Origin: Beverwykella pulmonaria
Taxonomy: Eukaryota; Ascomycota; Dothideomycetes; Pleosporales; Melanommataceae
NCBI GenBank assembly: GCA_001599595.1
Contig: BCHH01000009.1
Span: forward strand, 1,602,901 to 1,666,900
Length of the DNA: 64,000 bases
Direction of reading: 5' to 3'
Shown here: positions 1-28,201 of the stretch, piece by piece
How positions within the stretch are numbered: position 1 is the stretch's first letter
Layout: every line of letters begins with the position of its first letter
The notes under the pieces: generated by a model
What the model saw: only the letters and a program-made list of their open reading frames with translations
What the model was told of the DNA's origin: nothing
The model's database searches: none
Position numbers and translations under genes: made by a program

Positions 1-527
1 AGAAGCATGCAAAACAAAATCCTAGAAATGAACGCCGGCGAAAGTCAAGAGTGTTCAAAGTCGGAAAGCGGGCCAAGGGAAGTAGTATATCAACGTTGAA
101 CTTGGCAAGTGGCAAAGTCGAAAAGCAACAAACAGTCGAAACGTGGTCTGAGACGACAGTGCTACGAGTGACTTCCGGGGTCTCCACGGTGGTGGCATGC
201 TTGCTACCGATTGTCGCTATAACCGTCCTTTCACAACTTCATGGAACCAGAGATCTACTGATATGTATCGCCGGGTTTGCGGTAATTTTTGCAATTGGTC
301 TCATCTTCCTCACTCAAGGAATGAGCACGAGAGTCGAAATATTCACATCGACTGCAGCGTAAGTTTTCGCTCCTGATAGTTCAACCACTCACTAATGTCA
401 TGGTAGATTCTCGGCAGTCTTGGTGGTCTTCATCTCGACTCCAGTAATCAATATACCGCCAATAACCCCTTCGCTCGTGGCGAATATTTCTGCTGCGATT
501 CCTTCGGCGATTCCCACATTGCGATGA
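1..527 (+). CDS. DUF6594 membrane protein, 3' end (partial)
   Basis: The reading frame is open from the window edge (first codon at 3), so the start lies upstream. Coding runs to 358, a 48-nt intron (359-406; GTAAGT donor, ACTAATG branch point, TAG acceptor) is removed, and the second exon ends at the TGA at 525-527. The product ends in two or three hydrophobic segments, with the closing motif FSAVLVVFIS that also ends the two complete DUF6594 proteins in this window. That domain is a fungal family of unknown function with a helical N-terminal half and a C-terminal membrane block. Only the membrane block and a basic linker are visible here. This is the first of three family members in the window; whether a small SH3-like or caspase-like partner lies upstream cannot be seen. 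The family call is secure; the role is unknown. Confidence 0.8.
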
Positions 528-10700: not shown

Positions 10701-11304
10701 TAGCATCGACTGCCATGTCGGCAACATCAACGGCACGGTTGAGGTCGTCTATCGACCCAGTCCGCTCAAATCGCAGGCCAAGCCGCTTTCCAAGGTTGCT
10801 CAAGTAGCCGGCTTGATCGGGGTGGCCTTGGGGAGTAGCATCGACTGCCATTTCGGCAGCCTCGACAGCACGATTAATGTCGTCTATTAGCCCAGTCCGC
10901 TCAAATCGCACGCGGAGACAGCCCCCGAGGCTGCTAAAGTGGCGAGCTCGATCGGGATGGTCTTGAGGAGTAGCAACAACTACCATTTCGGCAACCTCGA
11001 CAACACGGTTGAGGTCATCCATTAACCTAGTCCGTTCAAATCGCATGCGTAGCACAGCAATAAAGTCGCTTAATATGCCAACTAGATAGATAGATCCCTG
11101 TGGCATTATATCTATTACTTTCTCCATCATGTTAATGGCCTCATGTAAGTCCTTTATGACGCCGGTTCGTTGGTAATTCTTTGACAGTTCGGTCGCTTGG
11201 TTTCTTTGATGCATTATTTGAGTGCCCACTTCGTCCAATACAGACCCATTGTTTGTGAAGTCGTTGTCCATACTAGTAGAGTGATGATTGCCGCTAGCGT
11301 GCAC
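7705..11304 (-). CDS. TPR-CHAT protease-like protein, 1199 residues
   Basis: An intronless frame. Roughly residues 80-620 are twelve tandem 45-residue tetratricopeptide-like units beginning RFExTGxIDDxNRA, followed by a divergent thirteenth. The 135-bp DNA units are strikingly alike. Next comes a helical linker, then a C-terminal CHAT domain (caspase HetF associated with TPRs). The catalytic dyad is visible as His1037 in FHFAGHGRSD and Cys1083 in LSACSTG, followed by GFRHVIGTLWEVSD. CHAT domains belong to clan CD cysteine peptidases. In bacteria and fungi, TPR-CHAT proteins are linked to immunity or cell death, including activation of gasdermin-like pore formers in some systems. No gasdermin is recognisable in this window. 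The repeats probably sense a ligand and the CHAT domain executes. The next gene on the same strand is a DUF6594 protein 685 bases away. Confidence 0.9.
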   Translation of the reverse strand: MHASGNHHSTSMDNDFTNNGSVLDEVGTQIMHQRNQATELSKNYQRTGVIKDLHEAINMMEKVIDIMPQGSIYLVGILSDFIAVLRMRFERTRLMDDLNRVVEVAEMVVVATPQDHPDRARHFSSLGGCLRVRFERTGLIDDINRAVEAAEMAVDATPQGHPDQAGYLSNLGKRLGLRFERTGSIDDLNRAVDVADMAVDATPQDHPNRAGYLNNLGNWLSSRFEWTGSIDDLNHAIEITKRAVTATPQGGPSRAVCLNTLGSCLARRFESTGLIDDINCAVDVADRAVSATPQGHPDLASHLSNFGSCLRMRFERTGSIDDINRAVKVADMAVDATPQDHPNRAVRLNNLGSCLGMRFEQTGSIDDLNRAVDATHMAVTITPQSRLNRAGYLNNLGIRLSSRFGWTGSIDDLNRAVDVADMAVDATPQGHPDRAGYWNNLGGCLGRRFEQTGSMDDLNRAIDVTDMAVNATSQNHPDRAIYLNSLGYRLSRRFERIGSIEDLNRAVDVANMAVTATPQDHPNRAAILNNLGSWLGMRFEQTGSIDDLNRAVNVADVAVSTTPHGRPIRAGYLNNLGSCLGRRFERTGLIDDINRAFDVAEMAVNATPQDHPNRAVRLNNLGKCLSRRFERTGLKDDFNRSLACFKKGWASHNSPPSTRILLARRAAAMLASQLNWKESSDLLQGAIKLLPKVSPRLLDNNDKEHMLGQFAGLASMAAAISLKAGKDEHRALQLLELGRCIIAGLLLEMRTDISDLRQQHPRLASEFESLRNELDSSPNEMYLLGDTVSSWKFQKSRRFEADQRFDEVIAKIRDQSGFQNFLLPPTIDDMMAAAAQGPIVIINVSFYRCDAFLLEHHRIRVLPLPDLREEELKERAQQQLVGSTLTLKWLWDIATGPILDELGYQCPPLDDNWPHVWWIPTGALSHFPIHAAGYHTQRFTKTVLDRAMSSYASSVKALLYGRRHTIHRPAELAPEHTLLVAMQDTPGRSRLAFATQEVEMLASLCPSLRLKPVIPTRRRNQVLAQLRACRIFHFAGHGRSDPLDPSRSCLLLEDWKESPLTVGDLRDSKIQESSPFLGYLSACSTGSNKVDKLVDEGIHLVSAFQLAGFRHVIGTLWEVSDSHCVDVAKVVYETIRDEGITDMAICRGLHQAVKALRDARMDATRDIRDAELSDDELSNEDETMLESPLYWAPYIHFGV

Positions 11305-11988
11305 GTTAGACGAGCTCGCCAGTGTAGTAGAGTCTTCAGGGTCATATCCACCAGAATCGTCTATCGTGCTCTCGACAAGGCTTGCGGAAGCCGGTATCAG
11401 ACGTCAGGCATTGAGGTTTGAGGAATTAGCCTCGCTGTAGATACCTGTCCAATTCAAGAAAAGCCTACTGGCGTGTTTCTCGAGGCTATATGCTCATTTC
11501 GGCACAGGTGCACAACATTGCTTCACCGGTCAACACGCCAAGGCGCTGAGTGTAATTCCATGAAGGATAATGGCGGCCTTACTGCCTGCCGTCGGCTGAC
11601 TTCAGTTCTGGAGCACATGTGGGCGATTTTGTTTGGCTCTGCGGGTAGTTGCAGTGCGTGTGGCTTGCGTTGCTGCCTAAATGTTGTTCCTGCTCGCTTG
11701 GCAGCTGCCGCTGAGCTGCGTTGCTTCAAGGGCACGGACCTCGTTCCATATTTCGCGTGAGTAATAACTTGGATGCAGCACGCAGCTTCCGTCAATAAAA
11801 CAGCCCTGGGCATCTCAATGGTATGTTCAACCATATGTAGCATGTTTTTCACACACGTCATCATGATACAAATATCAAATTTCTTTTATACACCATATCG
11901 AGGTGCTTGCATGAATCGGCGCTCTGCTGGTCAGCATCAATCTCTAACCGAACTGCGGACCGAGTCGTCCTAACTTCTCATGCAACAC
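11305..11988. other. Intergenic, upstream of the CHAT gene
   Basis: 685 bases containing the CHAT promoter and the 3' flank of the DUF6594 gene. Frames of about 100 codons exist on both strands (11473-11760 plus, 11523-11864 minus), but they overlap each other and have no recognisable domain. Confidence 0.5.
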
Positions 11989-13191
11989 CTAATTCTTGGA
12001 TACATTGGCACTTGAGATGAATACAATCAGTACTGTTGTGTATCTGTACCAGGTAGGATGTTAGCTACTATTGGAAAGAACCACGAATCTCCTAACTCAC
12101 GTTGCACCTGCCACTACTAATTCAACAGTTTTAGCTTTGGTTGAGCCTGACAATACTGCAATAAAGGCGCTTGCGGCAGTTATAATGGCAAGAAGTCTGG
12201 CAGTAAGACTATCCAGGCGAGTGCAAGCAACCACAGGAGCAAGCAGAAGTGTGACAATGAAGGGTGTCATTAAAACTCGAGCAGTTCGCGTAATCGACGC
12301 CTTTGGCATGATGTGGACTTTGGGGTCTCTAGAAATAGCACGGTGCCGATGCTGGAAGGTTTTCAGTTTGAGGTCCGTTTTGTTCTGAGGCAAATACCTT
12401 ACCTTCCCAAACCATCGGCGGAGACGAATTAAGGATTTCTCTGCAATTGTCTCTAACCAAATCATGACAGTATCATCTGTAGAGGCGACACTAAGCAAAT
12501 CATTGGAATGATCAAGATATGCAGTTTCTGCTCTTGCGATGCAACCAGTCCCGTTGACCCAATTCTGCAAGCTCGAGACAGCTTGCAGCCTGGCCGTTTC
12601 GAAGCTGAGTATCTGCTGATTCCTTACAATCAAACTGTCTTCGCCTTTCGTCAGAGCTGTTTAAATTTAGATTGACAAATGCCTACCATAATCAGCTAGC
12701 GCAACATCAATTTGTGACAAGACAGAGCTCCTTTCGCTATTATCGTCCGCGCGACAACTTCCAAGGCGTAGAGTTTCAGTCTCTTGCCTATCGAGTCTCC
12801 GCAATTGGTTCTCCAAGAACGATAATTTGTCCTGTTTCAGCAACAGAAGGCGTGAACGCAAGTGAGAGAACCGGCGACAGAGGTGAAAGTGATCGTGAGA
12901 CGCTATTAGTGCTGAGAATCGAGGATAGCCGGCGGGGTTGTCTTCGACTGGTAGTATTCAGTAATGCTGCGATATATTACATTGGAAAGAAAAAAAATTA
13001 CTCTGCATTGGGTATCTTGAACGGTCACTGCTTTTGCTAACTTCACTGGTAGATCTTGTCATCCAGGATAAAAACGTATTACAGAATCTTTTAGGAAAAC
13101 TTCTGCCTAAGCCTTCACTATTAACAAAAGTTGATGAGAACAAATTGCCAACCTGTCCAAGTTCAACATCAGTAACCCATGGACATGCCAT
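11989..13191 (-). CDS. DUF6594 membrane protein (block A)
   Basis: Reconstructed exons, 5' to 3': 13191-13002, 12947-12687, 12656-12101 and 12043-11989, giving 353 residues. The first intron is 54 nt and the last is 57 nt with a GCTAACA branch point. The second intron could end at 12657 (30 nt, very short) or at 12645 (42 nt); both keep frame. An extra intron near 12390-12330 cannot be excluded. After a 63-residue leader the N-terminal motif reads GYPRFSALIASHDHFHLCRR, followed by a helical segment on heavy and light heptads. The C-terminal part has hydrophobic segments around MTPFIVTLLLAPVVAC, LLAIITAASAFIAVLS and VLIVFIS. These features define the DUF6594 family. No biochemical role is known. 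The gene is followed by an SH3-like small protein and a caspase-like gene. Confidence 0.8.
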
Positions 13192-13767
13192 TGAAGAGGG
13201 CGTTGGAGTAGGCTAAAAACTGCAACGGAAGAAGCTAAATCAAGGCAGAGGAGAGTGAGCATCACAAAAGATCTCGACACTCTGCTTTTAGGTCTTTGGT
13301 AAAATCCTCAGCCGTGGCAGCCGACAAAGGGAGATAAGTGCTCAGATGCGTAGTGTTCGAGGCTGCAGCTCCTAACGTCGTGGGCCTGGACTACACGAAT
13401 CACTGTAATGCCGGGTTGCACTAGTGCAAGATACATGCTGTGGCTGCTGCGGCAAGGCTCGCACAGCGGCTGACAACGGACAGGGATTTAGACTATCTCA
13501 CAGGGCTACAACCCTTCCCCAATTCTTGATTTTCACAGCCTACCAAGAATGACTTCTGAATGCTAAGGCATACTGGTGCGACACATGTTTGCGACTGCAT
13601 TCAGTCTTGGTGGTCCTTTTGTCAGGCTGACAGCCAACAGGTACAGTAAATATTTACTCGCTTTCACCTGCACTCATACTGTCTCATACACAAACGCAAT
13701 TCATCACATTTTCTTGCTTCACTCTTGTACACTGCCATAAGCTTGAGCCTGCTGCGGTGCTATAACG
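13192..13767. other. Intergenic, divergent promoters
   Basis: 575 bases between the divergently transcribed DUF6594 and small SH3-like genes. No further coding sequence is seen. Confidence 0.6.
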
Positions 13768-14138
13768 ATGGGATCGGTCAAGGAGTAAGACGGCCATCTT
13801 ATATACATTTACCATTCTAATAACTGTTATAGAGATACACATAATCCGCAAATCGTTTTCTGCGATGATGGCGGCCGTCCAAAAGTAGATGAATATAGCA
13901 TGGCAAGTAGCACAATCGCGGGTCTATTTTGGGGATTCTTACGAAGAACCACCAGCAACCCAAATTTCGACCAAACGACCGAGTTTACATCATTACCCCT
14001 GCACGAAAAGGACCATTCCAGGTATTCACTATCGTTAGTGGGAAATACACCCTCCGCGACGCGAATAAGAGACTAGTAGAGAATGGGAAAGAGTTCAAGG
14101 AATCGGAGCTGCAACTAGAACAGGAAGATTTTTTCTGA
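13768..14138 (+). CDS. Small SH3-like hypothetical protein (block A)
   Basis: Three exons are proposed: 13768-13784, 13833-13884 and 13947-14138 (or 13956-14138), giving 86 or 83 residues. The first intron is 48 nt with a GTAAGA donor and a CTAATAAC branch region; the second has a GTAGAT donor. The product has a short acidic start (DTHNPQIVFCDDGGRPK), then KFRPNDRVYIITPARKGPFQ, a beta-rich stretch, YTLRD and KEFKESELQL. The pattern resembles small SH3/KOW-like barrels (xFxxxDxVxI...YxLxD...F.ESxL). It resembles the small protein at 25763-26167, which occupies the same place between a DUF6594 gene and a caspase-like gene. No signal peptide or membrane segment is present. It converges with the caspase-like gene, whose stop is 110 bases away. 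Function unknown. Confidence 0.6.
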
Positions 14139-14247
14139 TGAAGTGCCGACACTTTATTATGAACGATGAAACACGTCAGAAGGGATAATCAGTTGGCCTA
14201 GCTAGGAGTCTACTATTATGAAATAATTGGTCGCTGGTATATATGGA

Positions 14248-16257
14248 TTATTCCAATACAGTGCGTATTATGAAGTTCTTAGTTGCCCATCCATCCTCAC
14301 CCTGGCCTCGGATACCCACTGTCAGCTTTGAAAGAAAATCCGATAGATTATCTCCGTTATTAGCGCCTCGAGATACAACGCTAGGAATGCGAGAAATCTC
14401 GGGTAAAACCATCTGAGGAAATGAAATTGGCTTGCTCGTAATGAAGACTTTAATAATATCTTCACACTGGCCTTTGCCGCTATTCTGAAGGAATTCAGGT
14501 ACCTTCATCCGCAGCCCTATTACCTTCCCACCGTCCGCCCCCTCATTCTTTGGTGGTATGATTTTATAACCACCTCCACCAGATTTGGAAATGAGGTTTT
14601 TAATTTGCCAAGAAGGGGCGAAGTTAAACATCGCTAAATATAGCGGTTTATTGCTGAAATTTTCAACGAGAAATTCCCATTTGGTGTTATGTTTGATGTC
14701 GAATGCGCCGGATATACCAGGAGGACATTTGGGAATAAGTGAGAATGACCTTTCGAAGGTCAAACTGGGCAGCCGGTTCACCAATCCCTCGAAGTACTTG
14801 AATGTTGCAAGGTGTTGTATGACATTTACAACAGCTTCTGTAGATCCGTCTGAGCTGCACGGTATGCTTGGAATGCAGGCAACCTTTTCATGTAACGCAT
14901 CGACTACATCATACTCGTCACGTTCGTTGATAGTGACGTTGAATATGCATGGTTCCTCTGTCTGGTCTTCTGTGGAAAGGCGCACGAAACGCAGTCCTTT
15001 CGCAGTCGCTTCTAATTGCCTGCTGCAGCTGATGCTGGCCAGAAGTCCTACACAAATATACCTAGGGGAGAGACTGGTAAGCAGCTTTGCTTTCCAGCCC
15101 ATCTGGAATTGTATTAGGGCTGATGTCGTGCTGACCTCTATCAAGTCTGATTCAAAGTCTCGAACAGTATCGACTCGTACATTCAGAATTGCTTCTTCCT
15201 CCTGGTAGTTGGCGTGCTCGGGAGTGTCAAATGGATATACGGCGTACTCATCACCTTTGCAAACGCCGTTTACATGTCCTGCTTTTAAATATAGGCGACC
15301 ATCTATTGCCTTGATTGGAACAAAATGGATATCTGGCTGGGGAAGAGGGTTCCCAAAAAATATGAGGTTCGCATTACCGTACCGCATTGGGGTTTGCCGG
15401 GGCCAGAAGACATGGAACCTGGTGCTAAGGTGCTCGTGTACGGATTGGTGTGTAAGTTCTATGCCTTTGTCCCTCAGAGTAGTGAGAGCGTCAAGGAGAA
15501 AGTAAGTAAGAGCACCTCGCCTCTCTCCGTCCTTCTCAAGTTCATATGCTTTTTCATGTGGAGCACAGGCCGAGAGGACCGTATAGCTTTTAGGTTCGAG
15601 AAGCCAGTCTCGCTCCATTGAGGAATCGCGTAAAGGGCTGGCCACGTCGAATAAGATCCCTTTCTGCTCTCGGAGGCTGGCAGAATCAACACTGGGGTTG
15701 TAATTGACTGTTCGGACGTCAAACCCGCGCCAGTCGCTATTGCGTACCACACTGCCAGAAAAGCAACAATCAAGAACAAGTGTGATAAGAAGTCCTTTCT
15801 GAGCCATTATATCCAGAGCTGATGCTAAAACTCGAGTTCGAAGGTATCTACTCCCACTTCCATCTTCCGATAGAAGAACCAAAGCAAGTTCAAGAGCGTC
15901 GTTAGGGCCAGATTGTGCATCGGTCGGCGGCAGTCGTGCACCGTGTCCAGAGTAGTGGATGTATACAACGTCTCCACTTTTTGCCATATCCAATACTCTG
16001 CAAAGGCTAGATTTGAAATTTTCATATGTCGGCCATATGCCTGGTTCTTCGGGTGGTCGGTTGGAATTAGGATCCGTAGGTGTTGCTGCGGTAAGGACAA
16101 CTATGTCCACATCAGATTCCCCTGTTTCGAGGAAAAACTTAACAGCCATCGCATCTCGAATGCAACCTTTAAGCCACTCGTCTTCACGCTTAGGGTAGTA
16201 ATTGATGCCAACTATGACTGCCCAGTGGGACGTTGCAATGTGAGTTTCGCGAGACAT
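14248..16257 (-). CDS. Caspase-like (peptidase C14) protein with DUF4384-like C-terminus
   Basis: An intronless frame of 669 residues. Residues 10-300 form a caspase-like domain: it opens HWAVIVGINYY, has the catalytic His105 in YIHYSGHGAR and the catalytic Cys165 in VLDCCFSGSV, and ends ANLIFFGNPLP. Both dyad residues are intact, so activity is plausible. Substrate specificity of fungal members is Arg/Lys or unknown. Residues from about 310 are an all-beta extension. Its final third (WEFLVENFSNKPLYLAMFNF and what follows) resembles the DUF4384-like domain found behind caspase domains in bacterial and fungal proteins. No NLR or prion-like N-terminus is fused. It lies next to the small SH3-like and DUF6594 genes. 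Self-cleavage or partner cleavage in a death or stress pathway is an inference. Confidence 0.88.
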   Translation of the reverse strand: MSRETHIATSHWAVIVGINYYPKREDEWLKGCIRDAMAVKFFLETGESDVDIVVLTAATPTDPNSNRPPEEPGIWPTYENFKSSLCRVLDMAKSGDVVYIHYSGHGARLPPTDAQSGPNDALELALVLLSEDGSGSRYLRTRVLASALDIMAQKGLLITLVLDCCFSGSVVRNSDWRGFDVRTVNYNPSVDSASLREQKGILFDVASPLRDSSMERDWLLEPKSYTVLSACAPHEKAYELEKDGERRGALTYFLLDALTTLRDKGIELTHQSVHEHLSTRFHVFWPRQTPMRYGNANLIFFGNPLPQPDIHFVPIKAIDGRLYLKAGHVNGVCKGDEYAVYPFDTPEHANYQEEEAILNVRVDTVRDFESDLIEVSTTSALIQFQMGWKAKLLTSLSPRYICVGLLASISCSRQLEATAKGLRFVRLSTEDQTEEPCIFNVTINERDEYDVVDALHEKVACIPSIPCSSDGSTEAVVNVIQHLATFKYFEGLVNRLPSLTFERSFSLIPKCPPGISGAFDIKHNTKWEFLVENFSNKPLYLAMFNFAPSWQIKNLISKSGGGGYKIIPPKNEGADGGKVIGLRMKVPEFLQNSGKGQCEDIIKVFITSKPISFPQMVLPEISRIPSVVSRGANNGDNLSDFLSKLTVGIRGQGEDGWATKNFIIRTVLE

Positions 16258-17324
16258 ACCAGTACCGGTATTGGGTTCGAGCTGAACGACGACTGAAGCA
16301 CAGAATGTAAATTATACAAGTATCGGACTCTTTTAGTTTAACGGAACAAGATTACTAGCACCTGACACTGTTGCGCGGACACTGCCGTCGGGGAGGGGTC
16401 GCTCGTGATGTGTTACTGGTGAAGTCGGAGCCAGGGTGCAGTGGGGCTGCCAAGTTGGCAATTTTCTTTTCATATCGCCCAGTCATTCACATCTCTTTCT
16501 ATCTACGAAAGTACCAACTAACTCTCCACGCGTTATCTGACATGTAATGACCCCGCTCCATAGACAGCTTTGCAAATTCTATCACAGCGCACGTAGTCGA
16601 GCAAAGCAACGACAAGGCAGGACGCAACACACAATGGTAAGCCATGTATCACTATATGCCATGCCCATATACAGGGCAGGTGCTTCTATTAAGCCGTCTA
16701 GGCCCTGCTACCGTCCTGTACGACCGCCCTCTAAAATATCGTCCCTCCTTGACAGTCCGTTCCAGAGGGACGACGATTTCATCGGCCATGATAGTGCCGA
16801 TATAAAACATCGGATGTGCTTCATACCAGCCTATCGCGCAAGGCGAGTTGGCCTTGGAGGAATTAGGTGAATAGCAGATGTTGCAAGCCAGCAGCGAACA
16901 GCGGCTATCCGTTGTTTTAAAAGTCCCAGATTACCATCGATTACATCTAGTAGGTAAGGGATGAGTCACCAAAGACATTGGTGTTCTGGTTACATGAAGG
17001 CACGCAGGCGATGTTTGAGAAGGTGGCTACCAGAGGACCGCTGATGCGGTGAGCTAATTAATCTAGGCTGTCTCCCCCACCAGGTTCCGATCACTTATAA
17101 AAGAAGATGCTCAAATTATCCACATTGCAAACGGCCATCGCTTGCTGCTTGTTGGATTTATCGCAGTCAGCTACGAAAAACCCGCAGAACATCTGCTTTA
17201 GGGCTGCCCTATCCGTCCATCCTACTACATTCACCGAACAGATCTATCTTTATCACCTCCCGGAGCTAGGATGTAGCATAAATACTGACAGGATTCCCCG
17301 CTTGCATAACTGAGGTTTAGCTCA
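16258..17324. other. Intergenic, no supported gene
   Basis: About 1.07 kb upstream of the caspase-like gene. A TATAAA occurs near 17095, but the frame directly after it (17107-17313) starts too close to it and has no family features. Nothing else is recognisable. Confidence 0.5.
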
Positions 17325-17860
17325 TAGACGAGGGCAAAGCGCTAGCTCCTTTCTTGTAGAAACTGGGCTCTAATGTGGAAAAGGACAACGCTACTGTACC
17401 ACTACTGCAATCTCTTGACTACATGCATCTTGCTATCAGATATGTTGCTCCTTAAATCGAACAGAGAACGCCGCGTATAACTATCTTGCGATACATAGAA
17501 GTTTACAGAAACAACTATGACCGAACTTGTCTGCTCATGAACGGTGTGGGAGACAATTGCATATTACATGTGAATGAAAAGGAGTTCAAAAGCAACTGAG
17601 GGTATGGCAATACGTGCAATGATGATTAAGGAGAGGATAGCATGGCAGGACGGTCTTAGCACGCTGAAAGTTGCTAGCATCCTGGCGATGGTGCTGAAAT
17701 ATCAAGGAAGTACGAGACGGTAGAGGATATGATCCAGCGAGCGCTGGAGGGAAAGGATAAGGCTCTGGGTAAAGACTACCCCAAAACGCTGATCAGTGTG
17801 GATAACCTGGCGGAAGTGATGCGGTGCCAGGTGAAGTACGAGGCAGCAGTAGCTAGTCCA
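17325..17860 (+). pseudogene. NB-ARC/TPR (STAND NTPase) gene remnant
   Basis: Around 17325-17545 one frame reads IDEGKALAPFL-stop-KLGSNVEKDN, then QSLDYMHLAIRYVAP-stop and IEQRTPRITILRYIEVYRNN. This matches the end of the nucleotide-binding region of fungal NB-ARC-TPR proteins, where LDYMPLA is conserved. Stops are at 17357-17359 and 17453-17455. From 17670 kinesin-light-chain-type TPR sequence follows: ILAMVLKYQG, a one-base frameshift near 17706, then IQRALEGKDKALGKDYPKTL and SVDNLAEVM. Neither end of a full gene is left. Such genes encode cytoplasmic NLR-like receptors. The copy cannot be functional. Confidence 0.7.
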
Positions 17861-18785
17861 TTTTCTGCGGCCACCAGCACGTACCCATTAATACATAAGC
17901 AATCAATATCTGCCCATCGGAGTCGAATGAGATCAGTTTTGAGCACGTAGTGAGCAGATAACCATATTGAGTAGGTGGGGAGATTGATGGCGGAGTGATG
18001 AGGAGCTAACAATAGCCCTTCCAACCATGATGTTAGTTTAGTAACACCACGGGCTAGGCCAATCATATATGAACAAAAATCATCTTACTATCGACAGATG
18101 TTTCGTAAACGCATTTGTCTAGTTTTGGACTAAAATGGACAGGAATATCTGTATGAGTTCATGAGGGGTATTCGCATTCTCGTTTAGCTTACCGAATTAA
18201 TGGTATGCTCGTGCTACTCCAGAACTAGTTGCTCCCTGTGAATGACGCAGCTTACTCAGTTTCCGGTTCACTCAATCAGATTTAAATTAAGTGTAACGCC
18301 AACCTCACCCTTGATACGTGTGAATGCCGTTCTGGTGGGTTTAGAGCAAGCAGATGTCTCAATGCATATTCAACTGCTCACTCTTCTTGTTCAGAATACG
18401 ATTAATGCGATCAAGAGATATGCAAACTGAGCGAGGGTAGTAAACGGAGATTCTAGTTATGATTCATTTGGAAATAGTCTAAAGGACCTTTTAGGGAGCC
18501 ACCTAGAGTATGTTGTCAGCTCGTAATATTTTCAAACTCTACGATGATTGACCAATGTTAGACATTGTTGGGATATGGAAACTGTTTTTGGGATTTCAGC
18601 TTCCTCATCGGGACTACCTATCTGCAGAGACTCTCGAAAACTATGTGTATACCGATATTGTGATAAATGAAGATTACATATGGCCAAGTCTAGGATATGA
18701 AAGCTGACACTATGGGCTGCGCGTTCTTCACAGTGCCACGGCCAGAAGAGAGTAATATCGCATGGAAAGTGAGCCAGGTGCGAGA
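17861..18785. other. Intergenic, AT-rich, no gene seen
   Basis: Roughly 900 bases between the NB-ARC/TPR remnant and the promoter of the cysteine-rich peptide gene. Only short frames broken by stops are present. Confidence 0.5.
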
Positions 18786-18791
18786 TATAAA
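18786..18791 (+). promoter_or_regulatory. TATA box of the cysteine-rich peptide gene
   Basis: TATAAA lies 124 bases upstream of the start codon of the small secreted peptide gene, in a reasonable position for its core promoter. Confidence 0.4.
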
Positions 18792-18909
18792 GACCTCATA
18801 GGTGTCCTGAATTGAATCGTTTCCCTCACAGTTATTGACTTTCGAAGAAAAAAATTGTCTGGCAACTCCTCTACCACACCAAACCACACGAACGTAATCA
18901 TCTATCAAT

Positions 18910-19279
18910 ATGAAGGCCTATCTTGCTATTTTCTTCCTTGCAGGGCAGCTTGCCGCTTCCCTCGCCGCCCCCGCTGAAAATGATGCTTCCCCAGGTGTTA
19001 CTCGTACGTTTCCATTCCACTGTTCGGTATATTTTTGCTGATAATTAAACTACTAGTCAACACATTCCAGCATAATGAACCTGCCCATCTTCAAGGGCAG
19101 GGAGCTTCTGCGGACGCAGCTTGTGAGTGCATTATTCTGGGGATTCGCTATGCCGCATTCTTCCTCCGGTTTCTAACATACACACAGCCGCATGCTGCTC
19201 CGGAATTTGTGCGGGCTACTGCTGCCCCCCCGGCGCCAGTTACTGTTACTACGATGGCAATTGCTGGTGTGTCTTTTAG
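18910..19279 (+). CDS. Small secreted cysteine-rich peptide (effector or antimicrobial candidate)
   Basis: Three exons: 18910-19003, 19057-19122 and 19188-19279. The introns are 53 nt (GTACGT donor, ATTAAAC region, CTAG acceptor) and 65 nt (GTGAGT donor, TTCTAACA branch point, ACAG acceptor). Phases agree and the protein is 83 residues. Residues 1-20 (MKAYLAIFFLAGQLAASLAA) are a clear signal peptide. An acidic, low-complexity propeptide-like stretch follows to about residue 55. The last 28 residues hold eight cysteines spaced C-C-x3-C-x3-C-C-x6-C-x5-C-x-C, ending NCWCVF. Even cysteine number, compactness and secretion suggest a disulfide-knotted effector, toxin-like or antimicrobial peptide. 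I recognise no family; the C-x-C ending recalls defensin-like folds only loosely. It is the only intact gene in an otherwise decayed stretch. Confidence 0.75.
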
Positions 19280-21729
19280 ATGAAGACGGTTTACGCAGAG
19301 TAGGTTTAGGCCATGACTGAAGGTCAGACCAAAATTGCAACAGTTAAGGCGGAGCTTGATAGTCGTAGTTCAAAGGCTCATTCGCTCATTCGCTCATTTA
19401 TGACTACTGTTTGTTTTTGTTGGTATCACATGATTTCTCAGCGTTGATATCACGTGATTTCCCCGCTCTGGCGGCAGTCACATGATCAGCTTTCTGAGTC
19501 AAGGATCCTCAAGGATCCTCGTATCTTAGAACCTCAAAAAGAATATCATCACCACACAAGCAGGACACTAATACTACGGTATTGGAGCCCACTGCTACGT
19601 GGTAATACATTCAACCAGTCGATTACCTCTACTGTGACCGTGAATAACCTCGGGGTTACCGACAGTTTTGAACATTCCATAAAATCCAAATAGTTTATTC
19701 GCGACGAGAGAAGACGTCACTAAATGTGTTGTTTCAGTTCGTGCTAAATCCTTCTCGAGGAGCGTGGTTTGAGAGTAGTTCCCATCATAGAAAAGTCATT
19801 TGCAGAACCAACGTAAATCCATTCTTTAGATTGAAGCACGTTCTTGCATCTTTGTTCCATATATCCGCCTACACAAAGTTTAGCCAGCGATCATTCTCTA
19901 CGGGCCTTACAAGTGTATCGCTAATTACGAAGCGCACAGTGCTAGAACTGTCCTACATACGCGAGAGCCCGTACTCTTTGAATACATATCATGATAACAA
20001 GCAAGTATAATTCTTCATAGACCGACACTTCTATGCGGAGAAAGCGAAAGTAATGTGGGGTCGAAAACATATGGTTGGATGAATGCTTCTCTCATGCAGG
20101 AAATACTACAAATGCAACATAGATAAGCAATAAATAATAGAATGTTTTCTCATTTTAGCCGCTACATAATACGGTCGCAAACCACAAGTTCCTACAAATT
20201 ACCGTGTAGCAATGGAACAAGGTTGAGGTAGCCATTGTTGCCACTAATGGCAGGGTGAGCGCTTAGACGTTTTCATCACTGCCCCAACCACGTCTACTAC
20301 CCATGTGATATATACATGTCCAAAGATAAACTCTAATCAAATGAATTTAAATCCAACATTTCTTCAAAGCATGACAATAGAGAAGTTAAAACCTGTAATA
20401 AATGTAGTCTGGAGGCCGCACGGAAATTTAAGGCGGACAACTCCATCTCGAAGCTGCGACTCATAGTAGTACCAAAACGCAATTATAGGAGGACTATTAT
20501 TCCAAGAGACAAAAGAGCCTTGTGTCCCTAACTTCCCGCTTGTTATGGTGATGGCGGACGAGATTGTTACTGTTCTGCGGGCGACGGACGTCTGAATGTC
20601 TGCAACTCCACAACTTAAAGTTGCCATGTATCCCAGCAACACATAATCTCCTTTATCTCGCTCTTATTCTCACATTTCACCAAAGCCTGGGATCCAATTC
20701 TCTTGTCTTTCTAGCAAACCACAAACTCGTCGTCTTCGAAAAGAAAACAGATGTAGCTAGTATAACACGTAGTAGGGCTGCCTTAACCGATTCGCCAAAA
20801 CTAGTGCTAAACATTAACGTAAAGTAAACAATTAGGAGCATTTGTCCCAAATCCGGGAACTAATCCACAAAAGAGTCCGCCACAGTCTCGTCTACAATAG
20901 ACTACGAGCTATCCATTCGTCATCGCGCTGCCATCGGTGTGGTAAGTCCAACGCAGGAAATAATACCATGCGATGCCAACGATGGGAATGGGCGAAAAGA
21001 ATTGAATATGCCACAATATATGCGCGTTTCCACCACAAGACCAGAGACTTAGGCCGCGAGATTTGGTGGTATGATAGCCAAACCATGCAGGTACTGGCAC
21101 CAACAGGATCTGGAGCAGCGCAGAAATACCACTTAACACGTGTTTGTTACAGTGGGCTTGGGGACGGCCATTGTGGACTTGGTGGATGTACGAGAAATCA
21201 TCTCTCAAGTATTCAGCTGCCTTGACTGCCCCGCGTTTTGACTCCTGGTCCACTGGTAGGCGAAACGTAAGGCCTGCCGTAATAATGGATGCAGATGTCT
21301 TAATAAGAGGAGAAGAGAAATTTTCACGTTATGATGCCTTAGATAACGTTAAATCCAAGGTAGAGAAAAGACTGATACCGAGGTGCTTGAGAGGGGGAGG
21401 GAAGAAGGCAAAGTTATAAGGGGTTGGTGGATGATGTTGAGTCAAGAACAGCTGTGGTCGAACTTGGTGTGGCCTCATGCCTTGGGTTAATGTTGAGGGG
21501 AAATGCTATACTGGGGTGTAGTAGCGTAAGAAAGACGATGGTAGTAGCTACTATATCTCTTTTAAGGACTATGAACGTAATTTCGTTATTTGCGAGCGTG
21601 CTACCAAAGCCTTGTGATAGCTCTGCGATACGGAAAGTGTAGCGAATAAATGTAAAGACTGCACTGAAGGCAAGGGCTAAAATATCAAATAGTGTTAGTC
21701 CATGCTAAGAACGAATAATATACTATAGG
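19280..21729. other. Intergenic with unassigned fragments
   Basis: 2.4 kb without a supported gene. It contains short direct repeats (CTCATTCG-type units near 19378-19400 and a doubled AAGGATCCTC at 19501-19520). A minus-strand hydrophobic frame at 20909-21253 and another open stretch at 20364-20642 may be gene debris, but I cannot assign either to a family. Confidence 0.45.
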
Positions 21730-22445
21730 GTTTTCTTATCTGAGAATGTAAAAACTTGGAACTTGCACCATAGAAATGCTTTAAACTTTAGAAAAGATCG
21801 TAAAGTCAAAGAAATAGGCTCCTGAGACCCAAGTACTGCGCGAACTGCTCTAGAAAAGTCGGCACACAAGAGCATGGAAAGCGCAATTGAGGCAACTTGG
21901 AAAGCCAGACCAGCAACCATGTAAGCCGAGGACACCATAATGTCACGTGGATATGCCACTGACTAGTCAGTCCGTCATATATATATATCAGCTGTACATA
22001 CATCACATACAATACACCTTTTTCCTCCGCCCTCCAGCTTACAAACCATAATATGAATTCCATGTTATTTCTTCTCGCTGGTGTCTGCACCAGGCCAATA
22101 GTGAGAGCGACCAGATACTTGCCATTTCATTATCAGCATTGAAAAGGGATCAAAAGGGATACAATCTAGTGCTAACATCACGAATGGTCTCTTCGTAAAT
22201 GGATTGCAGTGCATCTGAATACGCGCGACATATCCAACAATCTCTAAGATAAGACCACAGAACATACGGGTAAGGAAGCCTCAAGTCTGACTCCAAATGC
22301 CGAGAAGAGTCAGAACAAGTACTGCTAGAGCAAAGATGCTGATATAGAAAGCATTTCCACCAAGACTTGGGTCGTATTGTACCTGTCCATTTATCAACGA
22401 GCAGGTCGCAAGCGTATAGTTTTCGGTAGGAAAACTGGGATCCAT
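21730..22445 (-). pseudogene. RTA1-like membrane protein remnant
   Basis: Starting from an ATG at 22445 the frame gives YDPSLGGNAFYISIFALAVL, a TGA stop, then GFLTRMFCGLILEIVGYVAR and IQMHCNPF. This is the N-terminal half of the fungal RTA1-like seven-helix family, in which LEIxGYxxRI and NPF are conserved. A second segment near 21960-21820 reads RDIMVSSAYMVAGLAFQVAS, matching a later membrane helix. The stop stands where family members usually have Arg (CGA to TGA), and the section between is scrambled. RTA1 proteins are associated with resistance to toxic lipids and drugs. This copy is broken. Confidence 0.6.
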
Positions 22446-22759
22446 GAGTGTACAAAAGCTAGAAGAAATTTATGACCATGAAAATCGGGTGTATATTTTA
22501 AATTAATTTATTAAAGTCCAATTAAGTGTCAACGGCAGCGTTAAAATCTTTCCTCCAATAAGCTCTTGCTAGAATTGAACTTTCTCTGAACTGACGTTCC
22601 TTATCCCAAAAAGTCGTGGCCATTGTTACTCTATGGAGGTTTTCAGTGCCACAAATCTCTTTGAAGAATTTCAACCTCGCACAGTTCTTCCTCCTATCTC
22701 GAAGTCGATGATGCAATGGAGGTAGATGATGCCACTCAGTCGGATTCGCGTCTCATATG

Positions 22760-23243
22760 ACTTAACTAGCTAAAAATGTGATCTCTTGAAGTATGTCCCC
22801 GTCGCTCATGTGTGTATCATCTCGAACAGGCGTGTCTAAAGGACAAGTGCAAGTTTCCATCTCGGGAAGGCTCATTGTCTACATTTTGAGTCCCATAATG
22901 CCTACAGAACATCTTCGATAGTATTTTTCATCACGGATTGGAAGGGGATATGCACGCACGACTCTAGGCTATAATAATCTACAATTAGCTGTCCGATGTA
23001 GCCTGTTATGAACCTCAACTTGCCAGCTCCTGTCATCCCCAGCACGGCAATGAAAATATCTTCTTGGCTGTCTTTCTTGGTGCATAGCACAAAAAAAGTT
23101 TTCTCGGGGTTCGCCAACCTAAGCGTCGTGGCTGCTTCCTGCGATCTTCGTTGAGTTATAGCAATCTTGGGAAGGATTATAGTCCCGAATGGGGTCAAGG
23201 CCGAGCAGAAAGCTTTGCAAAAGAGAGAAACCCTATGAGGCAT
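22760..23243 (-). pseudogene. P-loop GTPase (AIG1/dynamin-like G domain) remnant
   Basis: The frame contains DIFIAVLGMTGAGKLRFI, a GxTGAGKS-type Walker A motif in which the Ser after Lys has become Leu. It continues as YYSLESCVHIP, the usual switch I region (SLxSCT). After stops, TPVRDDTHMSDGDILQEITF follows, a corrupted form of the DTPGFDDTxRSDxDIL switch II motif common in fungal AIG1-like proteins. In-frame stops lie between the two blocks. G domains of this kind occur in fungal incompatibility and NLR-like proteins. The remnant lies just inside the second DUF6594/caspase block. Confidence 0.6.
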
Positions 23244-23879
23244 GTTAATCAGTCCATCAACAGAGCTGACAGTATTTAGAAGGACAAAGCGTCATTTACA
23301 CCAGTAAAGAATATTATAATGCGATCCAAAATATGGTTACCAGAACTTCTTTGCCGAAAGTTTAGCCTTGCATGAATGTGCATGCATATGCATGCATATG
23401 CACTACGCAAACTCAGAAGAGGTGGTGGAACGCTGAAATATTGATAGACTTTGATGTGGCAGAGTCTCATACTCCGGCGCTTGCTCAGGTGCGTTCGCTA
23501 TGACACGACGCAAGGCTAAGACATAATGATGTATATTCGCAGCCCACCATTTGTGCCCTTCTCACCCGCGAATTAAACAGGCAGTCTCCGAAAGAAGGCA
23601 ACGATTGATCACAAACAAATAAGTTTTTGTTCGTTTGACATTTCTGCTTACCGTCGGTTGGTAATACTTTCCACTTGATCGGCTCATGCCATTGATTATA
23701 GTATTCAAGACTGCCCATCAAATATTGAGACTTTCTGGCTGGCTCGCGATATTCGATGTTGGTACCCAAGGTTTCTGTAAAGGGATTTTGAGTTGGATTG
23801 TTCTCTTACTGTAGTCCTCCTGGGTCTCTTCCAAGAACGTCTTTTTATGGAAGAGACAATATCCACTATCCTATTATCC
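23244..23879. other. Intergenic with an unassigned minus-strand frame
   Basis: A 94-codon minus-strand frame (23485-23769) is present but I recognise no domain in it. Two tandem CATGCATATG units lie at 23381-23400. Confidence 0.4.
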
Positions 23880-24030
23880 CACACGCCGCACTAATTGCAC
23901 ACCTAGTGTTGCCTAGTAGTGGCATCGCCGACTTATATTGACTGTAGGCCAGTCCAAGCGGTACTGTTATCATACCTGTACCAATGCTGATCGCGGCCGA
24001 TATCGCTTTAGGGAAGTACCGGGGACTATG
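23880..24030 (-). pseudogene. DUF6536-like fragment
   Basis: A short segment reads MITVPLGLAYSQYKSAMPLL followed by CAISAAC. This resembles the conserved stretch of the fungal DUF6536 membrane-protein family (Lxxx-S-x-MPLxGS-x-SAAISAAC). It is followed by stops. About 50 residues are left, so the call rests on one motif. Confidence 0.45.
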
Positions 24031-24220
24031 ACGGGTTGAGCAGGATGCTATATGTGGAGAGACAGTAATGGGCAGTGGATGAGGTGTCAGGGTGCAAAAC
24101 GAAGAACGTGTGTATGTTGTGACTAACCGAAATTAAAGACTTTTTATGCGCGAACGTGCAGCTCCATCCTCCCCCGCCACCCTACCACCATCATCTCACG
24201 TAGCAACACTCTCTCCGCTC

Positions 24221-25575
24221 TCAGCTACCCTCCCGACCCAACCCTGCCTTCCCACCAAAATTACTAATAAACACGACCAAAACGGCACAATACGCTGCAC
24301 TAGCCGCAAACAACTCATGTCGCTTCGCTTTGGTCAACATGCTCATCGCGGCCGAGAATAACAGGGTGAAAACGACCAAGACGCCAGTAGCATTGAAGTT
24401 CGAGGTATTGTTTCCACTGCTGGTGATCTTGCACATGACTACAACTGGCAGTACGAGGAGCACGAAGATGGTAAGCGTGATAATGAGGTTGACGAGCGAA
24501 GAGATGCGGGACGACGAGTAGTAGTGGATGTGCTTGTTATTTGTCTTGGAGCGGAGCTCAGGAGTGGTAAAGAGTCTCTGTTGCAACAAAACAGATTTCA
24601 GTCAGTAAACATCGTCCATGGAATGATTGTGGGAACCAGATGGAGATGGATGACTTACATGAATGAAAGTGCAATGGCACTTGCGGATCAGGTTCTCAAT
24701 CAGCCCATCAAAGCCGCCCCATTCCCGCCCGTGTCGAAGACTTATAAGGTCCTCTTTGCGTTTGATGAATTCTTCTTCCAGCTCGTACGCGAGCGGCTTC
24801 TCGTTCCAGAACCAGGTACGGAAACTACGGTAATCGCGTTTCGAAGGCCGTTGGAAGAGGTTTAAGTCGCGTGCCTTGAGTAGTATCTCGTCTAGAGGCG
24901 TGACGCGTCAATTCAGTCCGAGCAGGAGGGAAGAGAAGAAAAGGACGCGGCGAGGAGGCATACCATAGTTGACGAGCTTGTCTCGAATTGCAGCTATCAA
25001 CTTTGCACGCGAGCTTTCCGTCTTCTCGCGCTTAGCTTGCCGAAGGTCATATGCTCGAGACATCAAGCGCTTCTCGTTGCCATTCTCAGCGTCCATCTTG
25101 TCCAGATCGCCGAGTTGACCTTCCATGCACCGTAGTTCATCTTGAAGTTCTAGAATAACGCGTGAATGCAAATAATTAAACGCTCGATAAATCGAAAAGT
25201 TAGACTCGCTCGACTGAAATGCTGCTTGGCGAGGATATCCATTTTGGTAATCCTGCACTGTGTGCTGGTTGGTAAACTGGTTGAACAGTTACGTTACTTG
25301 TGGCTGTGCTTACAGGGTATAGTGACGGTTTTCTGGATTTCGTGCTCTGCTTGTATTACTGTTACAATGGGAGGTGCAGGCTCTGAGAAGCGTTAGCAAA
25401 ACCTAGCAATATTTGGTGTGGCGGAGCATATACTGTACGAATCAGGATTGACTATCGTCGTTGTGGGACTACTTATAGTAATGATAGCATCGCCGGTTCC
25501 CTGCGAGCTAAATGAATCATGTTTCTCCGGAATAGCTGCAAGGTTACTAGCAGAGAGAGGAGAGATTTGGGCCAT
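24221..25575 (-). CDS. DUF6594 membrane protein (block B)
   Basis: Exons, 5' to 3': 25575-25434, 25382-25314, 25257-24964, 24891-24659 and 24577-24221, giving 364 residues. All introns are GT-AG (51, 56, 72 and 81 nt) and the phases agree. Residues about 75-170 carry the family start (QNGYPRQAAFQ, then FSIYRAFNYLHSRVILELQD). The middle has LFQRPSKRDYRSFRTWFWN and LRHGREWGGFDGLIENLI. The C-terminus has three hydrophobic segments, near 268-293, 304-322 and 332-350, the last reading AVLVVFISNFGG. This is a textbook member of the DUF6594 family. The helical N-terminal half probably faces the cytoplasm. It is head-to-tail with the small SH3-like gene (187 bases away), and a caspase-like gene follows. 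Function unknown. Confidence 0.88.
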
Positions 25576-25762
25576 AGTAAGGCTGCGCTGATGACGAAGA
25601 AAAGCAAAGTCAACACCGTGTTTAAACAGAAACGTGCTGAATTGGGACCTTTTTCAACGTTGCCGTGTGTTGATTGATACTACAAGGCTGTGAGGCCGCA
25701 AGGCCAAAAAAATCGATTCCGCGGAGGCATATTCGTTAAACAAAGTGAGGCTACCATGCCTT

Positions 25763-26167
25763 TCATCCAATCCAATCCTTCAGTTTAGACTCCGGAAACC
25801 AACTACCACCTTTGTACAGATTTCCGGTGAGCGGGTCTGTTAACTGATACTCCCAACTGCCCTGAACCATCTGAGACATTCGAACCGTGAAATATTTGTT
25901 GAAAGTGCGTGATGTTCCAACATCAGATATTTCTGTAACAACCATGCCACATTCATCCCCGACGTCGAAGCCGGCCAATTTCTGTTCATAACATTAGCTA
26001 TTGTTTAACTGTACTCATAAATTGCACTGCACCGGTTTCGCAAATGGATCTACAACGACTGTAGACTTTTTTGGTTCATTATCCCCATCCTAAGGCATTG
26101 CCAAGGCACCGGTCAGCGTTAATATCGATTGCCTCTTTTGGTTTCGCCTCACCTGATCCGACATCAT
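25763..26167 (-). CDS. Small SH3-like hypothetical protein (block B)
   Basis: Three exons, 26167-26153, 26089-26033 and 25981-25763, give 96 residues; starting at the next ATG (26164) gives 95. The introns are 63 and 51 nt, both between codons, the first with a GCTGAC-like branch point. A short charged leader (DGDNEPKKSTVVVDPFAKP) precedes a beta-rich domain: AGFDVGDECGMVVTE, then WEYQLTDPLTGNLYKGG and SWFPESKLKDW. The ending (YxLxD...L..G..F.ESxL) matches the small protein at 13768-14138, and both have charged leaders. No membrane or signal sequence is present. It is divergent from the caspase-like gene (558 bases between starts). An adaptor or regulatory role towards the caspase or the DUF6594 protein is inference from gene order. 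Confidence 0.65.
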
Positions 26168-26660
26168 GAGGCTCTTGGAAAAGATGGAAAGTTCAGACAC
26201 CGTTTGTATACTTTTGACAGGAAAACAAATGTAGAGTGAGCACGGTAAGGCAGAGCGGGAGCGGCCGTGTCTGAGCCTGACCCGACGATAGTGGCCATAC
26301 TTAAAGCTGTGCAGCCAGCAGAGTTACACAGAGTCCCAGTCTGCCTTGCAACAGGACACAGCTGTCTCCGAAAAGTGGTAATGTTGAGCCTCAAGTGTGC
26401 TGTCATTGGGACAAATGATCAGCTGCATTTCGTTTAGGGGGGTGGTACTCGAAGCTGGTTGGAAGAGATAGACTGGGATCTCGTGTCGACATTGATATGC
26501 CGATTAGTCGACGGCTGGCAGCCACTGGTGAACTCGCCAAGCCATGCAAAAGTCCTCCAATAGTCAAAGTGAGTTGTGAGACTCAGCCTTGATACACAGC
26601 CACTGCGAATTCCTCCCCATTTTGCAATGGATCGTAGCAATGTGCGATATTATAGGTCTT
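26168..26660. other. Divergent promoter region
   Basis: About 490 bases between the small SH3-like gene and the caspase-like gene. The short frames here lack domains. Confidence 0.5.
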
Positions 26661-26666
26661 TATAAA
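26661..26666 (+). promoter_or_regulatory. TATA box of the caspase-like gene
   Basis: TATAAA 64 bases upstream of the first ATG at 26725. Confidence 0.45.
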
Positions 26667-26724
26667 ACCTCACACTCTCCTACGGGTTGCCCTACAACTC
26701 TCAGCCTAGGTGACACCACACAAG

Positions 26725-28201
26725 ATGGCAACACAACGTCAGCCAGTTGTATTACCAGAGCTCAATACAACCCCCTTTCCATCTCGCAGTCCTCCACCGG
26801 GTGAAATTATAAGGCAAAATCCAGCTGTTGTGCCTGACGGAAAACCTGTGTGCCCGCCCGAGGATGAGGAAGCGAAACGAGAACTGAAGAAGGAATCGGA
26901 AAGACAGGCCTGGTTCCAGAATGAAGCCAATAATATCCTGGATATCCCCAATGGATATCTCAACGTAGCCGTTTTGATAATACGTTGGCATGAAGACATT
27001 GACGAATTCAAAGGCCACAACGAAGAAGTGAGTATGGACAACTGAATGTATTGGGCTTGTTATTCACATTTCCAGATCGCGAGACTTGAGAACCTTTTTC
27101 GGTCCCGGTTCAATTACCATTGCGAGGTCGTCAAGCTAAAGAATTGCAAGAAGTCTCAGGTCGACCTAAACTTCGCAATTATGAAACACATCCACGAACA
27201 CGATGGACCTGACAACCTCTTGATCATTTACTATACGGGCCACGGAAATTTGGTTAACGAAGAAAGTGGACAGCGTCTGGAGCTATCAGCGTAAGTGATT
27301 TGATTTGGGTTGCTCTTCTTCCTTGCTGATCGAGAATAGCACTCAGAATTGGACCCAGAGAAGGGGTACTCATGTTCCGGTGGCATTCTGGGACGAGGCG
27401 GAGATTCCACTTCGAAATTTGGCCGAAGGCGACGTACTGTCGATTTTAGATTGCTGTTTTGCTAGCAGCGCTGCGTTAAAGAGTAGAAATGAGGAGTTCA
27501 GGACTTATCAACTGCTAGCTGCTTCTTCGCCAAACGAGACGACTAGCTGTCCGGGAAAGAACTCGTTCACCACAGCCCTGATCGACTCGATGGAAGAACT
27601 GCTACACGAGCATAACCGCGAAAACTTCCCGGTGACCAAACTCTGGGAAAGGATTAACTTGAAGCGTAAGAAGTCAGCGTCGCTGATATGGGATCGACTT
27701 CACAAGTACAAACGCAATATACAGCTGGCACCATTAGAACCTGGAATTATATGCCAGGAAGAGAGAGAGAAATCGTTTCGCAGTGGCGACCCCGAAAAAG
27801 CTTCCTTGACACTTCGGATCTCCCTCAAGGCTGACGACCTATCCAAACTGCAGATCCAGAGTCTTGCGCAACATTTGCCCCAAGCTTGCAAGGATGCGGA
27901 TGTCCCAGTGCGCCGAATCGACTGGATCAAAATGGAAACGTCGACTCGACCGATCAGCTTTCCTGCTGCTGTAACTGCTCTTAGTGTTGCGAAGGGCTGG
28001 ATGGGGAAGAGCAGCGCTCGGAGAAGCAAGTCGGCAGGACAGCGGAGAAGTTCACCTTCGAGAAAACGATCGGAACCAGACGGCGTTCTGTTGTCACCGC
28101 CTTCGAAGCGACGAGTATCGAAGTCAAGTCCCCCAACGCCTGTCTCCCCGGGAAGCGTTGTCATTGCGGAAGAGACGATGTCTTCCCCGGGAGAGGCATA
28201 G
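26725..28201 (+). CDS. Caspase-like (peptidase C14) protein with basic tail
   Basis: Exons 26725-27027, 27076-27290 and 27340-28201 give 459 residues; introns are 48 and 49 nt. Residues 1-75 are proline-rich and then highly charged. The caspase-like core starts at about residue 80 (LNVAVLIIRWHEDIDEF). The dyad is His157 in IIYYTGHGNL and Cys212 in ILDCCFASS, followed by RTYQLLAASSPNETT and SFTTALIDSME, the usual order for short fungal caspase-like domains. From about 375 the tail is Ser/Arg/Lys/Pro-rich with basic clusters (SRKRSEP, PSKRRVSKSS) that could be nuclear-localisation or cleavage sites. It is shorter than, and differently built from, the caspase at 14248-16257. Both catalytic residues are intact. 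It is divergent from the small SH3-like gene. Confidence 0.85.

Follow-up and report, generated by a model that had tools for sequence, protein, structure and literature searches.

We identified a gene for a TPR-CHAT protease (CHAT-A) lying close to one for a C14 peptidase, or caspase-like protein (caspase-A), in a 64,000-nucleotide stretch of Beverwykella pulmonaria DNA (GenBank assembly GCA_001599595.1, contig BCHH01000009.1, positions 1,602,901 to 1,666,900), hereafter called the window. A gene for an 83-residue protein (small protein A) and one for a DUF6594 protein (DUF6594-A) lie between them, and we refer to the four genes as block A. The association of the two protease genes, with its accessory genes, is real and recurs elsewhere in this genome. 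The original prediction had instead described two copies, A and B, of a unit made of a DUF6594, a small SH3-like and a caspase-like gene; the TPR-CHAT protease, which it did not list, is the strongest partner of the caspases. We tentatively favor, at somewhat less than an even chance, the view that block A represents a fungal module that exists in several copies. Its core would be a TPR-CHAT and a C14 protease acting as a two-step relay, to which the products of the small gene and the DUF6594 gene would be accessories. The fungal cell-death loci described in the literature consulted here combine a single protease or receptor with a single pore former. If true, a recurring pair of caspase-fold proteases with bacterial counterparts would point to a fungal two-step protease relay.

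The two proteases of block A

CHAT-A (7705..11403, minus strand) is the largest gene of the block A module, and lies 0.6 kb outside the region that the original prediction covered. Its 1232-codon open frame matched the Pfam CHAT and TPR_10/TPR_12 families. TPR repeats followed by a CHAT domain with a His/Cys dyad define a TPR-CHAT protease, and CHAT-A exhibits this arrangement. The CHAT domain (residues 919-1231, 120 bits) has His1070 and Cys1116 in place, and the dyad was likewise intact in all seven CHAT domains compared. The TPR-type array consists of 12 repeats of 45 residues (residues 166-705), the last of them degenerate, and repeats 1-11 share a mean pairwise identity of 66%; the underlying DNA was read as 12.2 copies of a 135-bp unit with 76% matches. 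Arrays with strongly alike repeats are typical of fungal recognition receptors. A Pfam scan taken to an E-value of 1 listed TPR and CHAT for this protein and no SAVED domain, and PADLOC returned no match.

Caspase-A (14248..16257, minus strand) was identified by PF00656 (54.5 bits, where the cut-off is 21.4), by matches to metacaspase structures in the PDB, and by its paralogues and their alignment. It occupies a single open frame of 687 codons, or 669 residues counted from the first Met, with an N-terminal catalytic domain followed by a C-terminal region of ~350 residues. The dyad, His123 and Cys183 in the numbering of the 687-codon frame, is invariant in 6 aligned paralogues and is also intact in the caspase on contig C2. 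PADLOC matched caspase-A to its model named 'caspase'. Type I metacaspases carry a proline-rich N-terminal prodomain (PMC13304501). The catalytic domain of caspase-A begins ~10 residues past the first Met, near the N-terminus, and caspase-A is therefore without a prodomain of this type.

The acidic S1 pocket of TbMCA2 is formed by C92, D95, S156 and D211 (PMC4357240), the serine being given as Ser159 in PMC6426788. Residue spacing and alignment to metacaspase structures place C50, D53, S121 and D181 of caspase-A at the corresponding positions, and D53, S121 and D181 are invariant in the 6 aligned paralogues. Because the structure alignment and the spacing predict a pocket for basic residues, caspase-A is likely to cut after Arg or Lys.

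Genome-wide linkage of CHAT and C14 genes

The genome comprises 45.6 Mb in 31 contigs (those named here are C1, C2, C4, C5, C6, C7, C9 and C15). Whole-genome searches returned 12 CHAT matches, 10 C14 matches at 9 loci, and 49 DUF6594 exon matches that we grouped into 34 loci; for families of this size these counts are lower bounds. Adding one broken A-type copy and the caspase of block B (caspase-B) to the 9 C14 loci gave a set of 11 caspase loci. A C14 locus lies within 10 kb of 7 of the 12 CHAT loci, and a CHAT gene within 10 kb of 8 of the 11 caspase loci, the others being two on C1 and caspase-B. At 5 kb, a caspase accompanies 6/12 CHAT loci compared to 0.035 expected, a figure reached in 0 of 5000 random, uniform placements (shuffles). 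Exclusion of the window left 6/11 CHAT loci, compared to 0.023 expected and again 0/5000 shuffles.

The 7 paired loci differ in layout. The two genes are head-to-head in five (C2, C4, C15, C6 and C5:1557k) and tail-to-tail at C5:787k, while in block A two genes intervene. The fullest counterpart of block A is C5:785-793k, where a CHAT, a caspase, a small protein and a DUF6594 gene are each homologous to one of the four genes of block A and are arranged in a different order. At C6:1845-1854k, an A-type caspase with a convergent small gene is followed by a transposase-like frame, a broken CHAT gene and a second caspase, the last of these head-to-head with the broken CHAT. The open frames at L053 4014-4763, which separate the first caspase and the adjoining small gene from the broken CHAT, are transposase-like by their motif. 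Genome searches matched neither the small protein nor DUF6594 at the C2, C4 and C15 pairs. The caspase of the C15 pair (L051 658-3087, minus strand) has ~110 extra C-terminal residues ending in WDHLGIPRGLGRRLSRDVKEFKK; by eye this motif resembles a SAM-type interaction module, and Pfam gave no match there.

The remaining C5 locus bears on whether the two genes need act on each other at all. An ancestral CHAT-C14 pair may have been duplicated and dispersed, leaving proximity as a relic of descent without mutual action. At C5:1557-1563k the CHAT (C5:1561k) is open and 66% identical to CHAT-A, while the A-type caspase (L054 1041-1995, minus strand) is ~59% identical to caspase-A and is a relic, interrupted by stops and carrying another residue at the position of the catalytic His. 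Both genes are thus near those of block A, and duplication as a unit therefore seems to occur; moreover, since the CHAT is open beside a caspase relic, CHAT can do without its caspase. We read this locus as a module losing its second protease. Against an explanation by descent, the pairs have stayed adjacent despite divergence (distances of 0.46-0.84 among 8 caspases and 0.26-0.71 among 7 CHAT domains), varied orientation and inserted genes, and bacterial CHAT and C14 genes again lie close together, in either relative orientation. We consider this explanation somewhat unlikely.

We also compared the distances among CHAT domains with those among their partner caspases, setting the C6 CHAT against the second C6 caspase. 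Across the 7 pairs the two sets of distances correlated (Mantel r 0.56, 36/5040 permutations), and we regard the signal of CHAT/caspase co-evolution as modest.

A small gene accompanies A-type caspases

Small protein A (13768..14138, plus strand) was read by eye as three exons, 13768-13784, 13833-13884 and 13956-14138, which yield 83 residues in place of the 86 first claimed. A genome search found further copies at C6:1847305-1847496 and C5:790995-791168 only, and each of the three copies, when used as query, led to the same three places and to nothing else up to an E-value of 10. All three adjoin an A-type caspase. The last exons of the two other copies are 49 and 38% identical to that of small protein A, and by eye an intron precedes the same residue in the A and C6 genes and probably in the C5 gene. 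The functional linkage first proposed from a comparison of blocks A and B is thus well supported for the small protein and the caspase, on the strength of block A and its paralogous loci and not of the A-versus-B comparison. The 3/3 linkage makes a concrete and cheap biochemical test possible.

The label 'SH3-like' is a putative one. Small protein A is short, and beta-rich by inspection only; a single-sequence model contained beta strands at a low-confidence predicted local distance difference test score (pLDDT) of 58, which decides nothing. No PDB match fell below an E-value of 0.7, and Pfam gave one match (E 0.056), in 1 of the 3 copies, to an unrelated-looking family. A shared-word search of a large protein database, a weak instrument for 83 residues, returned no homologues, and the protein was not found in 80 prokaryotic C14 loci.

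DUF6594-A as a possible optional partner

The domain-coding exons of DUF6594-A lie at 11989..12957 on the minus strand, and were identified by PF20237, exon reading, hydropathy and the best paralogue (C5:791776). The gene model is provisional, in that an N-terminal exon upstream is not settled and one inferred intron measures 30 nucleotides. The two DUF6594 genes originally described are both present: PF20237 matched four exon pieces of DUF6594-A and its counterpart in block B (DUF6594-B) at E-values of 4e-11 to 1.5e-22. In a search that covered 33 of the 34 DUF6594 loci, the best paralogue of DUF6594-A, on C5, scored 196 bits and the runner-up 93.6. Outside this genome 126 relatives were found, spread over many other ascomycetes, the best of the 120 matches listed being 79% identical. 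The term DUF6594 occurred in no paper of the literature searched.

Hydropathy placed three hydrophobic segments at the C-terminus of both DUF6594-A and DUF6594-B. A model of the relative P0049, built on a 66-row alignment (mean pLDDT 81), comprises a helical domain and, after it, three helices at the C-terminus; with regard to a possible gasdermin fold, this model is almost wholly helical. No solved structure in the PDB matched DUF6594 at E ≤ 0.001; structural alignments mainly spanned residues 90-163, at a score level that is common among helical bundles. PADLOC returned no match for P0049. A third DUF6594 gene crosses the left edge of the window (window 1-359; C9:1602177-1603259), at a distance of 7.4 kb from the CHAT-A protease domain, and was not recovered by a DUF6594-A search at an E-value of 1e-2.

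The original prediction speculated that the caspase acts on the membrane protein or on the small one; in the corresponding scheme it would cut one of the two and thereby free a membrane-active effector, akin to a protease/gasdermin pair without the gasdermin. Consistent with such a scheme, three hydrophobic helices follow a helical domain, the closest DUF6594 paralogue pair (A and C5) sits in two module loci, and membrane effectors that adjoin their own proteases are an established fungal pattern (PMC10197012). In addition, CHAT lies within 5 kb of 2/34 DUF6594 loci, one of them in the window, which was matched in 30/5000 shuffles with the window included. The expectation that DUF6594 genes neighbor caspases within 5 kb was borne out in this genome as a whole (3/34 loci, 0/5000 shuffles), but two of those three loci are in the window, and outside it the figure was 1/31 loci, a count equalled by 344/5000 shuffles, so that the linkage of DUF6594 is weaker than that of the small protein. 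Further evidence against this scheme is that DUF6594 is missing from 5 of the 7 loci that pair a CHAT with a caspase, that 31 of the 34 DUF6594 loci are without any caspase inside 10 kb, that no conserved cleavage site was found in DUF6594, and that block B was not established as a repeat of the unit. We consider this scheme quite improbable.

Bacterial counterparts and known systems

The top prokaryotic relatives of caspase-A are cyanobacterial, the first aligning across residues 31-663 at an E-value of 5e-62. We took the best 80 of at least 264 such relatives, with 40 of the 80 loci reaching at least 15 kb, and scanned their flanks with a profile made from seven fungal CHAT domains; the control was the position of the CHAT frames within the flanks only. 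A CHAT frame was detected in 13 of the 80 loci at E ≤ 1e-5, and in 8 at 1e-8. Within the group of 13, 8 CHAT frames lie no more than 200 bp from the C14 frame, and the close pairs occur in both relative orientations. Among bacterial C14 proteins (orthocaspases, cyanobacterial and other), that first cyanobacterial protein resembles caspase-A along most of its length; the fungal protein differs from these in being linked to a small protein and to DUF6594.

These data also bear on the possibility that CHAT and C14 proteins act in parallel, in signaling or development and not in cell death, with DUF6594 as an unrelated neighbor. Each of the three families is multi-copy in the genome, and in 67 of the best 80 prokaryotic C14 relatives CHAT was undetected in the flanks, which were often short. 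In contrast, CHAT-C14 adjacency across the genome far exceeds chance, and CHAT proteins have published roles in fungal incompatibility and gasdermin activation: hetB, a heterokaryon incompatibility locus of Aspergillus fumigatus, encodes a CHAT protein of 1327 residues (PMC11138114), and a TPR-CHAT protease of Podospora activates a gasdermin (PMC12881547). Parallel action is, in our view, likewise quite improbable.

Several known systems resemble the relay that we favor. Fungal gasdermin/CHAT or S8 clusters of the HET-Q1/HET-Q2 type likewise place a repeat-bearing protease beside its partner in small multi-gene units (PMC12881547, PMC10197012). In block A, by contrast, the main neighbor is itself a protease, from family C14, and DUF6594 belongs to a Pfam family other than gasdermin and is modelled as helical (no gasdermin search was made here). 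In a type III-B CRISPR SAVED-CHAT/caspase proteolytic cascade, attributed to Steens et al. in 2024, the CHAT protein reportedly acts on a caspase. That cascade is alike in pairing a CHAT protease with a caspase-like one, and unlike in that here a TPR array stands in place of the SAVED nucleotide sensor, no CRISPR context was seen and the host is a eukaryote. SAVED-CHAT is also mentioned in PMC11417357. The A. fumigatus hetB product shares the CHAT domain, and the available part of PMC11138114 does not mention a C14 partner. Csx29 of the type III-E Craspase also fuses TPR repeats to a CHAT protease (PMC11127173), but is switched by a guide-RNA complex, and nothing of that kind was seen in the fungal module. 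We met no CHAT-C14 gene pair from fungi in the literature searched, coverage of which was partial, such that absence from print is not established.

A possible two-step relay

Gene identities, intact dyads, linkage and bacterial counterparts of the pair are shown by the data above, whereas the order of action, the substrates and any function in cell death or in the recognition of non-self are inferred. In the relay that we favor, the high-identity TPR array would sense a signal or a non-self partner and thereby switch on the CHAT protease, which would cleave or otherwise activate the C14 protease. The latter, with a pocket predicted to accept Arg or Lys, would then act on downstream proteins. 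The small protein may serve as a dedicated cofactor, inhibitor or adaptor of the A-type caspase, while DUF6594-A, with its three C-terminal hydrophobic helices, could be an optional membrane-anchored partner or substrate, being present in two module copies. If this holds, DUF6594, a fungal family with 34 loci here and no described function, would find itself beside a testable pathway. A more far-reaching proposal is that filamentous fungi possess a caspase cascade encoded in compact modules (a TPR-CHAT initiator, a C14 executioner, a dedicated small regulator and, in DUF6594-A, a new family of membrane effectors) that share common descent with the bacterial CHAT-C14 pairs; we regard this proposal as unlikely.

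Several observations weigh against the relay. The linkage evidence comes from the sequence of a single fungal genome, the linked loci are paralogous and the linkages are therefore not independent events, and the shuffles ignored gene density. No C14 gene lies within 10 kb of 5 of the 12 CHAT loci, and DUF6594 is absent from most of the paired ones. The C6 CHAT is broken, and the caspase at C5:1557k no longer has the catalytic His, although the CHAT beside it is still open; removal of this duplicate from the Mantel comparison lowered r to 0.36 (69/720 permutations). The pocket Cys is replaced by Ser in 2 of the 6 caspase-A paralogues (the one on C4 and the first of those on C6), and most of the prokaryotic relatives sampled had no detected CHAT. 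Finally, an Arg ahead of the DUF6594 membrane helices, considered as a cleavage site and rejected, occurs in 45 of 66 relatives and is missing from the copy in the C5 module.

Block B, probably a neighborhood of its own

Block B contains DUF6594-B (24221..25288, minus strand), small protein B (last coding exon 25766..25981, minus strand; 72 residues checked, upstream exons not settled) and caspase-B (26725..28201, plus strand; 459 residues in three exons, with introns at 27028-27075 and 27291-27339). The original prediction was correct in reporting a small gene in both blocks, two caspase-like genes with His/Cys dyads, of 669 and 459 residues, and the orientations of these genes. Its treatment of the trio as one repeated unit was not confirmed: the DUF6594 subfamilies differ, the caspases do not match each other and the small proteins find different relatives. 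DUF6594-B, a PF20237 protein outside the module, has its top-scoring paralogue by bit score at C4:1188k, and its match to DUF6594-A was limited to a 33-residue piece (E 0.007). Caspase-A and caspase-B failed to recover each other at an E-value of 1e-2. Small protein B had a sole other genome match, at C7:856975-857175, which is weak (31% identity, one stop). A profile comparison of small proteins A and B was also weak (E 0.035, probability 1.5%), and the A profile did not recover B among the frames of the window at an E-value of 10; their similarity is suggestive at most.

Caspase-B, likewise outside the module, has 47 relatives in other fungi, the best 77% identical and the closest from Pleosporales. 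PF00656 matched neither two exon pieces of caspase-B nor its relative P0002, and precomputed PF00656 assignments exist for 10 of the 47 relatives. The TGHG and DCC motifs are conserved, neither the His nor the Cys varies among 17 aligned relatives, and PADLOC returned no match for P0002. Caspase-B is without a CHAT neighbor up to a distance of 10 kb. Paralogues of caspase-B in the genome were sought by the C14-family and A-type/paralogue searches only. In Melanomma, Lentithecium and Lojkania, relatives of caspase-B and of DUF6594-A are reported on contigs of unequal size. Block B is probably a neighborhood of its own, with another DUF6594 and another class of caspase, and exhibited no recurrence like that of block A. 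The pairing of A with B may be coincidental, but for block A the suspected functional linkage does hold, provided that the CHAT gene is counted in.

Two further features of the window lie outside these genes. A 1321-codon open frame at 55313-59278 (plus strand) had no Pfam match at an E-value of 0.01. Between blocks A and B, window positions 21414-21704 (minus strand) encode a piece of an RTA1-like membrane protein.

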